Part shown: one piece after another, positions 46,437 to 59,894 of the stretch | Numbering within the stretch: the first letter of the stretch is position 1 | Layout of the letters: each line of letters opens with the position of its first letter | Source: Flagellimonas hymeniacidonis | GTDB lineage: Bacteria; Bacteroidota; Bacteroidia; Flavobacteriales; Flavobacteriaceae | NCBI RefSeq assembly: GCF_008040165.1 | Contig: NZ_VRUR01000001.1 | Span: 825,349-889,348 of the forward strand | Reading direction: 5' to 3' | DNA length: 64,000 bases | The notes under the pieces: model-generated | The model's input: only the letters and a program-made list of their open reading frames with translations | Database searches by the model: none | Told to the model about the DNA's origin: nothing | Made by a program: the position numbers and the translations under genes

Positions 46437-46450
46437 TAAGCGACTATCAT

Positions 46451-46492
46451 AAATAAAAAAGCCCCGACCATTTAGTCGGGGCTTTTTTATTT
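46451..46492. terminator. bidirectional intrinsic terminator after the efflux operon
   Basis: GCCCCGAC (46461-46468) and GTCGGGGC (46475-46482) close a 6-nt loop. The A-tract before and T-tract after extend the pairing to 18 bp. It stands between the converging RND and YwqK-like genes and can stop both. Confidence 0.92.
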
Positions 46493-46503
46493 ATACTTTT
46501 CTA

Positions 46504-55992: not shown

Positions 55993-56085
55993 AATTTATG
56001 CAGATTAAGGCGCAATATACATTTATGTATGCTTTCTATAATACCGGACAATATCGAATTGAAAAAAAGTCATGTACAAAACAAC

Positions 56086-56099
56086 TAAGTTTAAACTTA
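56086..56099. repeat. 14-bp perfect palindrome upstream of dgt
   Basis: TAAGTTTAAACTTA reads the same on both strands, 94 bp from the dgt start and 223 bp before the porin ATG. A possible operator for either gene. It is AT-rich and could be chance. Confidence 0.4.
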
Positions 56100-56218
56100 A
56101 GTTAATATTTAGATTACAATAAATTGGCTTTCCTATTGCAATTTTGTTAATGCCTTAAGGCAACCCAGGTTTTCAAGATATATTAGTTTTTGTCGACTAT
56201 TTTTTTGAAATCCAAGAT

Positions 56219-56244
56219 ATGGCCATCTCGAACGAGATGGCCAT
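56219..56244 (+). repeat. 12-bp hairpin between the inverted repeats
   Basis: ATGGCCATCTCG (56219-56230) and CGAGATGGCCAT (56233-56244) pair perfectly with only AA between them. No T-run follows, so it is not an intrinsic terminator. It is the most GC-rich part of the gap. Confidence 0.8.
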
Positions 56245-56255
56245 TATCAAACATA

Positions 56256-56284
56256 ACATAAACCAAACATTAAATTAACATTGA
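56256..56284 (+). promoter_or_regulatory. Pho-box-like phased repeats upstream of the phosphate porin gene
   Basis: ACATAAA (56256-56262), ACATTAA (56267-56273) and ACATTGA (56278-56284) repeat every 11 bp with 4-bp gaps. This is the geometry of PhoB boxes. TATTTG (56292-56297) follows where a weak -7 element would be expected, 25 bp before the ATG. Together they look like a promoter activated by a PhoB-type regulator; the phosphate-uptake genes behind it support that. Confidence 0.6.
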
Positions 56285-56321
56285 TATTAGTTATTTGCAC
56301 TCGACAAAAACTAATATTGAA

Positions 56322-57521
56322 ATGAAATTAAAATTCTTGACCATTGGTCTGGTCATCTTCTTTTGTTTTTCTTCCCATTCTCAAGTAGTAGCCCCAAAAT
56401 TTGGCAAAGGCCTCCTAAATGTTGTTGGTAAAGACAGTACTTGGACCATGAAATTTGCAATGCGAATGCAATTTTTGGGTATAGCAACATGGGACAAAGG
56501 AACAGATAATGGTTTTGAAAATCCTGAGCAGAACTTTTTGGTGCGTAGGGCACGATTAAAATTTGATGGTTTTGCGTATTCCCCAAAGCTTCGGTACAAA
56601 TTTGAGTTGGGACTTTCTAACCGTGACATCTCTGGTGCAAACCAATTTACAAGTAATGCGCCGCGGTATATTTTAGATGCAGTGGTAATGTGGAATTTCC
56701 ATGAAAACTTTGAGCTTTGGATAGGTCAAACCAAACTTCCTGGTAATATAGAACGAGTCATTTCTTCTGGAAACTTGCAACAAGTTGATCGTTCACTCGT
56801 GAATAGTAGATTTAATATTGACCGGGATATGGGTGTGCAATTAAGGCATCATTTCAACTTAACAGATACGTTTTTGGTTCGTGAGAAGTTGGCACTTTCA
56901 CAAGGAGAGGGTAGAAATGTGACCTCTGGAAACCTTGGCGGTCACCAATACACGGCAAGAATTGAACTGCTCCCTTTTGGTAAATTCAAAAGCAAAGGGG
57001 ATTATAGTGGTTCGGATCTAAAACGTGAAGAATCCTCAAAACTAATGTTGGCGGTAACTTATGATTCCAATCAGAATGCTGTAAGGACAAGAAGTAATTT
57101 AGGTTCTTATATGGCAAATGATGTAGGCTTTTATGAAACCAACATCAATACAATTTTCGTGGATGTTATGTATAAATACAATGGTTTTTCACTAATGGGA
57201 GAATATGCCCATAGAGATGCCAAAGCGCCCATAGCCAGAAATTCTGATGGTACCGAGACAGGAGATATTGTTCTTTTGGGCGATGGATTAAATCTTCAAA
57301 CTGGTTATTTATTCAAAAGCAATTGGGAAGTGTCTGGAAGATATACCAATATTAATTTTGACGATATCACAGCTCGGGCGAATGAAACGCAATATACCCT
57401 TGGATTATCAAAATATCTTTTAGGCCATAAACTTAAAGTACAAACAGATTTAAGTTATCTTTCGGTTGACGGTGGTACAGACGAATTGATGTATCGATTG
57501 CAAATGGATGTTCATTTTTAA
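56322..57521 (+). CDS. phosphate-selective porin (OprO/OprP family)
   Basis: A 399-residue outer-membrane porin with a signal peptide (MKLKFLTIGLVIFFCFSSHS). It shows the OprP-like pattern: WTMKFAMRMQFLGIATWDKG, FLVRRARLKFDGFAYSPKLR, YILDAVVMWNFHENFELWIG and QTKLPGNIERVISSGNLQQV, and a final aromatic strand (ELMYRLQMDVHF). The ATG at 56322 follows the right repeat arm closely; a start nine codons upstream would lie in the repeat and precede the signal peptide. With the PiT transporter behind it this forms an outer/inner membrane phosphate-uptake unit. Confidence 0.92.
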   Translation: MKLKFLTIGLVIFFCFSSHSQVVAPKFGKGLLNVVGKDSTWTMKFAMRMQFLGIATWDKGTDNGFENPEQNFLVRRARLKFDGFAYSPKLRYKFELGLSNRDISGANQFTSNAPRYILDAVVMWNFHENFELWIGQTKLPGNIERVISSGNLQQVDRSLVNSRFNIDRDMGVQLRHHFNLTDTFLVREKLALSQGEGRNVTSGNLGGHQYTARIELLPFGKFKSKGDYSGSDLKREESSKLMLAVTYDSNQNAVRTRSNLGSYMANDVGFYETNINTIFVDVMYKYNGFSLMGEYAHRDAKAPIARNSDGTETGDIVLLGDGLNLQTGYLFKSNWEVSGRYTNINFDDITARANETQYTLGLSKYLLGHKLKVQTDLSYLSVDGGTDELMYRLQMDVHF

Positions 57522-57596: not shown

Positions 57597-59894
57597 ATGG
57601 ACAATATTTACCTTCTAATGATTATAGCCCTAGCCGCTTTGGCAATTGCCGATTTGGTCGTGGGAGTCAGTAATGATGCGGTTAATTTTTTAAATTCGGC
57701 TATTGGTTCTAAGGCAATTTCATTTAAAACTATAATGATTATTGCCAGTATAGGCATTGCTTGTGGCGCCATTTTTTCAAGTGGGCTTATGGAGGTTGCC
57801 CGTAAAGGAATATTTAATCCGGGGGAGTTCTTTTTCCAAGAAATCATGTTCATATTTATGGCCGTAATGATTACGGACATATTGCTGCTGGATTTCTTCA
57901 ATACGCTAGGAATGCCAACGTCCACTACAGTATCTATTGTTTTTGAGTTATTGGGTGCTGCCGTTGCTATGTCGCTCCTAAAAATTGGAGCCGCAAACGG
58001 TGATTTTTCAGATGTTGTCAACTATATAAATACCTCAAAGGCAATACAGATTATTTCTGGTATTTTACTTTCTGTTTTTGTTGCTTTTACCATTGGTGCA
58101 ATTGTTCAATGGATATCAAGATTACTGTTGTCCTATAACTTTGAGAAAAAAGCCAAATGGGTGGGTGCCTTATTTGGAGGAATTGCATTGTCCTCTATCG
58201 TTTATTTTATCTTGATGAAGGGAATAAAAGGAACACCCTATGCCGGTGAAACTTTTGACATTCTCGGGGGTATGAAAATCAAAGATTTTCTTGAAGCGGA
58301 AGTCGTTTCAATTGTGATTGTGAATTTTATATTATGGTCACTCATTTCTTATATACTCATATATTTTACTAAAGTAAATATCTATAAAGTCATTATTGGA
58401 GTTGGCACATTTGCCCTCGCCCTTGCTTTTGCAGGAAATGATTTGGTGAACTTCATTGGAGTACCAATTGCTGCTTGGCAGAGTTATGAAGCGTGGGTAG
58501 CATCAGGCATTCCAGCTGCTGAATTCAGTATGGAGGTGCTTTCAAAGAAAGTGCCTACCCCGACACTACTTCTTTTTATTTCGGGTATTGTTATGGTTAC
58601 TACATTGTGGCTTTCCAAAAAGGCTCGTTATGTAGCGGATACTGAGATTAATTTGTCCAGAGAAGGAGAAGCAAAAGAAAGATTTCAACCTAACTTTATC
58701 TCCAGAGGTTTGGTTAGAATGTCATCAAACATGTCGCAATACTTTAATAGTCTTTTACCCAAAAAAGTGAAGGCACAAATGGATAGACGATTTGACAAAC
58801 CAGTAATCGCACTATCTCAAGACAAAACACTTAAACTTCCAGCTTTTGATATGGTAAGAGCTGCCGTTAACCTTATGGTAGCTGGAATTTTGATTTCTAT
58901 AGCCACTTCTTATAAACTTCCACTATCTACAACATATGTAACATTTATGGTTGCAATGGGTACTTCTTTAGCAGATAGAGCATGGGGAGCTGAAAGCGCA
59001 GTCTACAGGGTTGCTGGTGTTCTTAATGTTATAGGCGGATGGTTTGGTACGGCAATAATAGCGTTTGTAGCTGCTGGTACTGTTCTTACGTTAATAAATT
59101 TTGGGAAAGGAGCTGCAATTGCCATCTTGTTGTTTACCGCCATACTACTGTTGGTAAGAAACTACAGTGCATATAAGAAAAAGGCAAAAGAGTTAAAAGC
59201 TGAAGACAGTCTTAATAGAGCAGAAAGTAGCTCTATTCAAGGTGTAATAGAAGAAAGCGCCAATAATATTGCCAACGTTATCAAAAGGACCAATAAAATT
59301 TATACCAATTCCATAAACGGATTGTCAAAACAGGATTTGGAACTTTTAAAAAAGAACAAAAAACAAGGTGCCAAGCTTTCTTCAGAGATTGAAGATCTTA
59401 GAAACCATCTGTTCTATTTTATCAAGAATCTCGATGAGGCAAATGTGGGAGCCAGTAATTTCTATATTACAACACTAGCCCACCTAACTGATGTAGCTCA
59501 ATCTCTTGAGTATATTGGAAAAGTGAGCCATACGCATGTACATAACAATCATAAAAAATTAAAGTACAACCAGATAAAAGAGCTTAAAGAGCTAGACATT
59601 AGACTCGAAAAATTATTTTCCGATACGCAACAAATCTTTGAAAGCAGATCATTTGAAGATATTGGAAGTAAACTGGAAGGTAAAAATGATTTGTTCAAAC
59701 TGATGTCAGATAAAATTGAGCGTCAGATTGCAAGGACAAGAACAGAAGAATCAAGTCCAAAAAATACTACGCTATACTTTTCTATCTTAACGGAGAGTAA
59801 AGATTTGGTTGAGGTTGTTTTTGAACTCTTAGAGCTTTATTACTCCGGTCATGATAGCACTATTGAGCCAGCAAGGATAGAAAAACCAGAGTAA
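57597..59894 (+). CDS. PiT family inorganic phosphate transporter with PhoU-like C-terminus
   Basis: A 765-residue inner-membrane protein. The two PiT signatures are VGVSNDAVNFLNSAIGSK (residue about 23) and FAGNDLVNFIGVPIAAW (about 280), in two inverted membrane halves; ATSYKLPLSTTYVTFMVAMG is the third typical block (about 440). Residues about 535-765 are a soluble helical domain (EESANNIANVIKRTNKIYTN) resembling PhoU. The fusion is usual in Bacteroidota. It imports phosphate, coupled to Na+ or H+. It lies 75 bp after the porin gene. Confidence 0.94.
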   Translation: MDNIYLLMIIALAALAIADLVVGVSNDAVNFLNSAIGSKAISFKTIMIIASIGIACGAIFSSGLMEVARKGIFNPGEFFFQEIMFIFMAVMITDILLLDFFNTLGMPTSTTVSIVFELLGAAVAMSLLKIGAANGDFSDVVNYINTSKAIQIISGILLSVFVAFTIGAIVQWISRLLLSYNFEKKAKWVGALFGGIALSSIVYFILMKGIKGTPYAGETFDILGGMKIKDFLEAEVVSIVIVNFILWSLISYILIYFTKVNIYKVIIGVGTFALALAFAGNDLVNFIGVPIAAWQSYEAWVASGIPAAEFSMEVLSKKVPTPTLLLFISGIVMVTTLWLSKKARYVADTEINLSREGEAKERFQPNFISRGLVRMSSNMSQYFNSLLPKKVKAQMDRRFDKPVIALSQDKTLKLPAFDMVRAAVNLMVAGILISIATSYKLPLSTTYVTFMVAMGTSLADRAWGAESAVYRVAGVLNVIGGWFGTAIIAFVAAGTVLTLINFGKGAAIAILLFTAILLLVRNYSAYKKKAKELKAEDSLNRAESSSIQGVIEESANNIANVIKRTNKIYTNSINGLSKQDLELLKKNKKQGAKLSSEIEDLRNHLFYFIKNLDEANVGASNFYITTLAHLTDVAQSLEYIGKVSHTHVHNNHKKLKYNQIKELKELDIRLEKLFSDTQQIFESRSFEDIGSKLEGKNDLFKLMSDKIERQIARTRTEESSPKNTTLYFSILTESKDLVEVVFELLELYYSGHDSTIEPARIEKPE

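Follow-up and report, generated by a model that had tools for sequence, protein, structure and literature searches.

A predicted small RNA gene in tandem with a phosphate porin gene in Flavobacteriaceae

Flavobacteriaceae are a major group of aquatic bacteria, and to our knowledge few regulatory RNAs have been described for them. In the stretch of Flagellimonas hymeniacidonis DNA analysed here, 64,000 nucleotides long and referred to as the window, long inverted repeats lie directly before a gene for a phosphate-selective porin, and the question is what these repeats do. An earlier note on this DNA had described a pair of 17-bp arms, a 12-bp hairpin between them and a 9-bp near arm, and had proposed one transcript switching between two folds. 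The repeats were compared with the rest of the window, with the remainder of the genome and with the corresponding loci of related bacteria.

The inverted repeats and the layout of the block

All three elements were found in the window. The far arm (56180-56196) and the right arm (56301-56317) were complementary at 17/17 positions, the arms of the central hairpin (56219-56230 and 56233-56244) paired at 12/12 and the 9-bp alternative arm was present at 56284-56292. The right arm ends shortly before the ATG at 56322, so that, as the earlier note had it, an arm overlies the stretch immediately preceding the porin start codon. The 17-bp arms are above chance: when 55993-56321 was dinucleotide-shuffled 1000 times, perfect inverted repeats (spacer ≤160) reached at most 15, and 17 was reached in 0/1000. 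The only other perfect inverted repeat of at least 17 in the window at a spacer ≤160 was a short-loop hairpin at 46449-46494. This hairpin, a perfect inverted repeat of ~20 bp, is probably a transcription terminator.

A search of the same genome for copies of the arms returned, beyond the locus itself, short or weak matches only. One other place carried 17/18 arm letters (G000:C1:320448) and was judged a chance match, since it lies inside a coding sequence, which we take to be NupC-like. A MITE or other dispersed repeat was rejected, as this search turned up no further copies.

The porin search covered 59 relatives and the genome of the window itself and yielded 14 loci of the same genus (window included), in all of which both arms and the intervening hairpin were present. 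The earlier note had named two findings that would speak against it, a start downstream of the far arm together with unconserved repeats, or identical copies marking a MITE; the repeats were conserved and no copies were found. An 18-mer, TATTAGTTTTTGTCGACT, was present in 14/14 of these loci, flanked by largely complementary segments of the GATTTC/GAAATC type. The order of elements in the loci was 18-mer, hairpin, second promoter, loop complement and start codon; the letters of the hairpin varied with its pairing kept, and a T-rich tail followed it in 10/14. The 9-bp alternative arm was kept in 4/14, the remaining loci retaining only the promoter letters GTTnTTTG.

The features of the block are located in Table 1. 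An HD-domain gene on the minus strand, presumably dGTPase-like, bounds the block on the other side from the Porin_O_P and PHO4 genes.

Table 1. Observed and predicted features of the block, in window coordinates
Feature	Position	Strand	Basis or remark
sRNA promoter box	56091..56118	+	11-bp-spaced direct repeats TTAAACTTAAG-TTAATATTTAG-ATTACA; consensus TTAAtaATTanTTAAtaTTannnTTACA (185 loci; partly circular, see text)
sRNA -7 box CAATTTTG	56139..56146	+	flavobacterial consensus TAnnTTTG, -12 to -5; implies +1 at ~56151
Predicted small RNA, ~97 nt, both ends inferred	56151..56247	+	covariance model R1 and fold z-score
5' palindrome/hairpin UGCC-UUAA-GGCA	56151..56162	+	palindrome TGCCTTAAGGCA
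Stem H1 (56168-56178 with 56203-56213), presenting the antisense loop	56168..56213	+	fold, helix 1 of covariation test, alignment-free test
Loop ATATTAGTTTTTGTCGACTA, antisense to porin leader; contains far arm 56180-56196	56180..56199	+	complementarity
Terminator-type hairpin (central hairpin 56219-56244); window copy without T-rich tail	56216..56248	+	helix 2 of covariation test
Porin promoter box AACATTAAATTAACATT, 11-bp direct repeat	56266..56282	+	box comparison over loci
Porin -7 box GTTATTTG, predicted +1 at ~56302	56290..56297	+	position rule (PMC9723704)
Predicted sRNA target site = predicted 5' end of porin mRNA leader (right arm)	56301..56317	+	complementarity to loop
Porin_O_P (phosphate-selective porin O/P) gene	56322..57521	+	PF07396, E 2.8e-13
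PiT-type phosphate transporter gene (PHO4)	57597..59894	+	PF01384, E 1.3e-29

Conservation, promoters and ends of the upstream RNA

A pattern scan of genome contigs returned 53 loci, including Flagellimonas/Allomuricauda/Muricauda, Maribacter, Arenibacter, Zobellia, Eudoraea, Zhouia, Mangrovimonas and Bizionia, which are by themselves no proof of loop conservation because the pattern fixed the loop and GAAATC. A covariance model, R1, was built from 47 pattern-scan sequences, one of them the window copy, on the RNA alone and without porin information, and was searched at a threshold of E≤0.01 against a sample of the family. Matches were obtained in 158/395 sampled family genomes, representing 105/219 genera, and were nearly always single copy; the window match (G000:C1:881509-881600) scored 62.1 bits. 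An order-level search with R1 matched 10/296 genomes, all 10 in the same family, the share of the 296 outside the family being unstated.

The gene downstream was assessed in 148 loci (window included; G196 and G507 left out) among the 150 matches listed, by an iterated profile search from the window porin. A Porin_O_P-type ORF started within 900 nt downstream in 139/148 of these, and the same test on all pooled, overlapping locus sets gave 205/216. Among 36 genomes of the same genus (that of the window included), the exact 18-mer was found in 14/14 with the porin and in 0/22 without it (Fisher p 2.6e-10). The comparison supports a predicted sRNA that is tied to phosphate porins and occurs in roughly one sampled genus in two.

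The earlier note had proposed a covariation check in related genomes, and this yielded a conserved structured RNA with covarying stems. In the window, the fold z-score of 56148-56250 was -6.4. The covariation alignment consisted of 106 model-fitted matches, that is, 100 expected places and six weak opposite-strand matches that were kept in the count. Fitted alignments are biased towards the model; on this one, pairing cells amounted to 78.3% versus 62.2% when shuffled, cells with two-sided change to 327 versus 105, and the covariation score was 0.494 versus 0.236 when shuffled (0/500) and 0.09-0.15 when slid. Two-sided change was present in 16/16 pairs, a count that is weak evidence because the shuffles average 13.2. 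In an alignment-free test, the stem enclosing a loop held unpaired had at least 6 pairs in 146/148 loci, with a mean of 13.5 versus 5.3 when the 5' arm was shuffled. RNAalifold on the unfitted alignment A1 predicted the terminator stem, with two-sided changes in 8/15 predicted pairs, and, within the loop, a small inner stem; H1 was not predicted on A1, some rows of which have the 5' arm of H1 misplaced. A1 was superseded by alignment A2/R1, and six divergent rows were excluded from A2.

Perfect palindromes of at least 10 nt were found in 102/186 loci, in 87 of which the distance from the box to the centre was 37-38 nt. Their letters vary between loci and their symmetry is retained (GTCTTAAGAC, GTGTTTAAACAC, TGCCTTAAGGCA), as expected of a 5' hairpin. 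The GTCTTAAGAC-like palindrome, which in approximately half of the loci keeps a constant spacing from the promoter box, may form a 5' hairpin or serve as a start-site operator. On this sequence comparison, it is highly probable that the upstream part of the block is a real RNA gene.

The sRNA box was located in 185 loci by its best fit to a pattern taken from loci aligned before, and the consensus TTAAtaATTanTTAAtaTTannnTTACA is partly circular for this reason. A non-circular measure is the TTTG that follows the box at constant spacing, which was found in 140/179 loci versus 1-8/179 in five control windows. In F. psychrophilum a TAnnTTTG box is reported at -12 to -5 (PMC9723704), and the predicted start of the sRNA is therefore at ~56151, exactly at the palindrome 56151-56162. 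The same -7 rule puts the start of the porin transcript at ~56302, in keeping with the start near 56303 suggested in the earlier note, and the near 17-bp arm would therefore be the 5' end of the mRNA, with a leader of ~20 nt; the median leader reported for F. psychrophilum is 24 nt (PMC9723704). Direct repeats of 11 bp precede both the sRNA gene and the porin gene, the porin box being AACATTaAnTTAACATT, and both boxes may bind a PhoB-type regulator. A usable flavobacterial Pho box was not found in the open-access literature. The porin-type box occurred in the window's genome at this locus only, with a pattern that is too strict to probe for a regulon.

A terminator-type hairpin was found in 185/188 loci, and a T-rich tail followed in 181 of those 185, versus a control-stretch mean of 54. 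The tail was absent only in L009 (the window), L011, L012 and L104, which make up the window's own clade, and a terminator scan of the window region was negative. Termination may therefore be poorer in the window and its nearest relatives, despite the strong hairpin.

Pairing of the loop with the porin leader

Pairing between the loop and the leader was assessed in 188 of 189 deduplicated loci; L189 was left out, though the site is visible there. Standard pairs were formed by 2523/2632 loop/leader cells versus 2498 with leaders shuffled among loci (0/2000), and 17 double changes were counted versus 4.7 (0/2000). Over the 52 distinct combinations there were 661/728 standard pairs versus 649 (5/2000) and 14 double changes versus 7.8 (9/2000); all of these shuffle statistics ignore the relatedness of the loci. 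Compensations in the core were seen in L142 (A-U to G-C), L193, L256 and L272 (each U-A to A-U) and L230 (U-A to C-G). The loop hardly varies, so most pairing cells carried no covariation signal and the overall signal was modest.

The window's duplex of loop and leader reached -21.2 kcal/mol (accessibility ignored) and ranked first among 57 ORF starts, ahead of a second value of -15.9. The duplex is 16-17 bp long in the window and mostly 12-15 bp elsewhere. The paired stretch ended 3-12 nt 5' of the AUG in 179/186 loci, in a first-pass placement in which several start codons were misplaced. These data suggest that the loop very probably pairs with the porin leader.

The sRNA (~56151-56247) would start at its own promoter; it would comprise a 5' hairpin, a terminator-type hairpin and, between the two, a stem that displays UAUUAGUUUUUGUCGACU as its loop. 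The porin gene would have its own promoter just downstream, and its mRNA would begin at ~56302 with the loop complement CGACAAAAACUAAUAU (predicted mRNA start, CGACAAAAAC), with the AUG ~20 nt into the message. The loop would pair with most of this short leader, so it most likely blocks 30S binding, and porin synthesis would fall. We consider it likely that the block is such a small RNA gene followed by its same-strand target, with the loop pairing with the porin leader and most likely blocking 30S binding; by analogy with FopS (PMC11697453), the effect on the porin is probably repression. The conserved structured RNA, the conserved promoter, the tie to phosphate porins and the complementary change in loop and leader are the parts supported by comparison.

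Nine of the 148 loci were without a standard downstream porin. In three of them (L164, L188 and L243, in G200, G107 and G214, respectively) the sRNA was kept, the PiT gene came next and no porin was adjacent, and the leaders of the distant porins in these genomes carried no good target site. Keeping of the sRNA in these loci suggests further targets or recent porin loss, and a single-target model leaves the three genomes unexplained. In L205 (G364) the target site was kept before an ORF without a Pfam match, a putative outer-membrane protein, which is followed by a PstS-like gene (PF12849). The RNA may track phosphate genes and not one porin lineage. In G171 (L236/L325, the latter being G171:C1:1244500-1250300) the sRNA and the porin were ~3 kb apart and the target site was retained; between them lie two opposite-strand ORFs, which from their translations we take to be carbonic-anhydrase-like and SulP-like. 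Since this match persists across ~3 kb, the RNA probably acts in trans.

An orphan sRNA copy (L214/L316) was found in a genome that also holds a complete unit. The porin reading frame was broken or displaced in L136 and L279, with the site intact, and in L145, with the site damaged. On G234:C1, L153 and L279 lie ~117 kb apart and represent two very similar sRNA copies; behind the second is a short ORF resembling the first part of a porin gene. In none of 10 genomes did 12-nt complements of the loop outnumber the reversed pattern (11 versus 13 in the window's own), and no convincing second target leader was seen among the candidate places taken from that genome and from those lacking a neighbouring porin.

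The same RNA and the same pairing might protect or activate the porin mRNA by covering its 5' end against decay. The duplex would begin where the mRNA itself is predicted to begin and could protect that end, and the similar repeat boxes on both genes would permit joint induction. However, a paired stretch so close before the AUG would also hinder initiation, and the measured precedent in the phylum, FopS, is repressive (PMC11697453). The present comparison would fit either sign, repression or stabilisation, and protection appears unlikely on balance. It is improbable that the sRNA acts mainly on other mRNAs in trans and that the porin leader is a titrating sponge. The sRNAs without an adjacent porin in G200, G107 and G214, and the orphan second copy in G215, would fit such a role, but the 12-nt loop complements are not above the reversed pattern and the sRNA accompanies the porin in 14/14 genomes of the genus, as against 0/22 without it.

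The earlier proposal of a single transcript, as a leader with an attenuator or a two-state switch, draws on the lack of a T-rich tail in the window, where read-through could give a long RNA with its arms pairing in cis. Several findings count against it: there are two conserved promoters in the block, one of them between the hairpin and the porin and hence, by sequence, between the arms, and the terminator-type hairpin carries a T-rich tail in 181/185 loci. The competing 9-bp arm is present in only 4/14 leaders of the genus, the arms are unlinked in G171, at a distance of ~3 kb, and three genomes have the upstream RNA without a porin. The pairing is thus most likely between two separate RNAs, and one two-state transcript is very unlikely. 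What stands of the earlier reading is that the repeats matter at the RNA level and that no named motif fits them. A DNA element (a protein-binding inverted repeat, an invertible promoter or a MITE) is highly improbable, although an invertible segment could well have 17-bp arms flanking a promoter and the near arm is at the predicted start site. The genome contains no further copies, the stem enclosing the far arm shows covariation of the kind expected of RNA, and the pairing of loop and leader survives through G.U as well as Watson-Crick changes. A single orientation was found in 14/14 porin-selected loci of the genus, to which the evidence on orientation is limited, since the remaining loci were selected by the model and flipped ones would be missed.

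In the reading of two separate RNAs, what we infer is that the block is transcribed in F. hymeniacidonis, where precisely the ends lie, that the regulation is repressive and that a PhoB-type regulator controls both promoters. A broader picture can be offered tentatively, as a possibility to which we give rather less than even weight: a phosphate-responsive sRNA family of Flavobacteriaceae, in same-strand tandem and in about half of the sampled genera, in which one regulator would drive both the porin and the RNA restraining it (an incoherent feed-forward loop), with further trans targets sustaining the RNA after porin loss. An RNA with one clear target would give Flavobacteriaceae a model of sRNA control without Shine-Dalgarno sequences, and would connect outer-membrane phosphate uptake with control by RNA. 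With promoter, loop and target site all conserved, the prediction lends itself to a direct test.

Comparison with known regulatory RNAs

A search of the window against Rfam 15 at gathering thresholds returned only a tRNA. At E≤1, seven loci gave three matches of 22-33 bits (E 0.1-0.28), far below the gathering scores of 50-90; these overlap the place of the sRNA in L084 and L106, name three unrelated families and were judged to be chance. The Flavo-1 RNA motif (RF01705), which is structured and widespread in Flavobacteriaceae (PMC9723704, PMC9029176), had no match in the window at the gathering threshold and none in the seven loci at E≤1. A description of such an RNA was not found in the open-access literature, a scope that leaves aside subscription papers and supplements.

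Porin sRNAs of the MicF/MicC type in Proteobacteria block the translation of outer-membrane protein mRNAs, and the ErsA sRNA is encoded beside its target algC and shares its regulator. These differ from the predicted RNA in belonging to another phylum, in being Hfq-dependent and in being encoded elsewhere or divergently, whereas the sRNA of the window lies on the same strand as its predicted target and just upstream of it. Within Bacteroidota, the FopS sRNAs of Bacteroides block SusC translation beside the start codon (PMC11697453). What the predicted RNA shares with FopS/GibS of Bacteroides thetaiotaomicron is the pattern of a Bacteroidota sRNA that has a terminator hairpin and pairs next to the initiation codon of an mRNA for an outer-membrane transporter (PMC11697453). 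FopS is described as having 14 paralogues, a seed in the unstructured 5' end and many SusC targets, in a carbohydrate or bile context (PMC11697453); unlike FopS, the sRNA described here is usually single copy, has its seed in a loop presented by a stem, lies directly upstream of its target and belongs to a phosphate context. Structured intergenic sRNAs, Rfp18 among them, are also described from another member of Flavobacteriaceae, Flavobacterium psychrophilum (PMC9723704). Rfp18 is reported to act on metalloprotease mRNAs via its third stem-loop, and is set apart here by this description only; the word porin is absent from the main text of that paper (PMC9723704). The best reading, with Rfp18 compared by description, is a new family of base-pairing sRNA acting on an outer-membrane protein mRNA, the distinctive point of which is the same-strand tandem layout of the RNA and its target.
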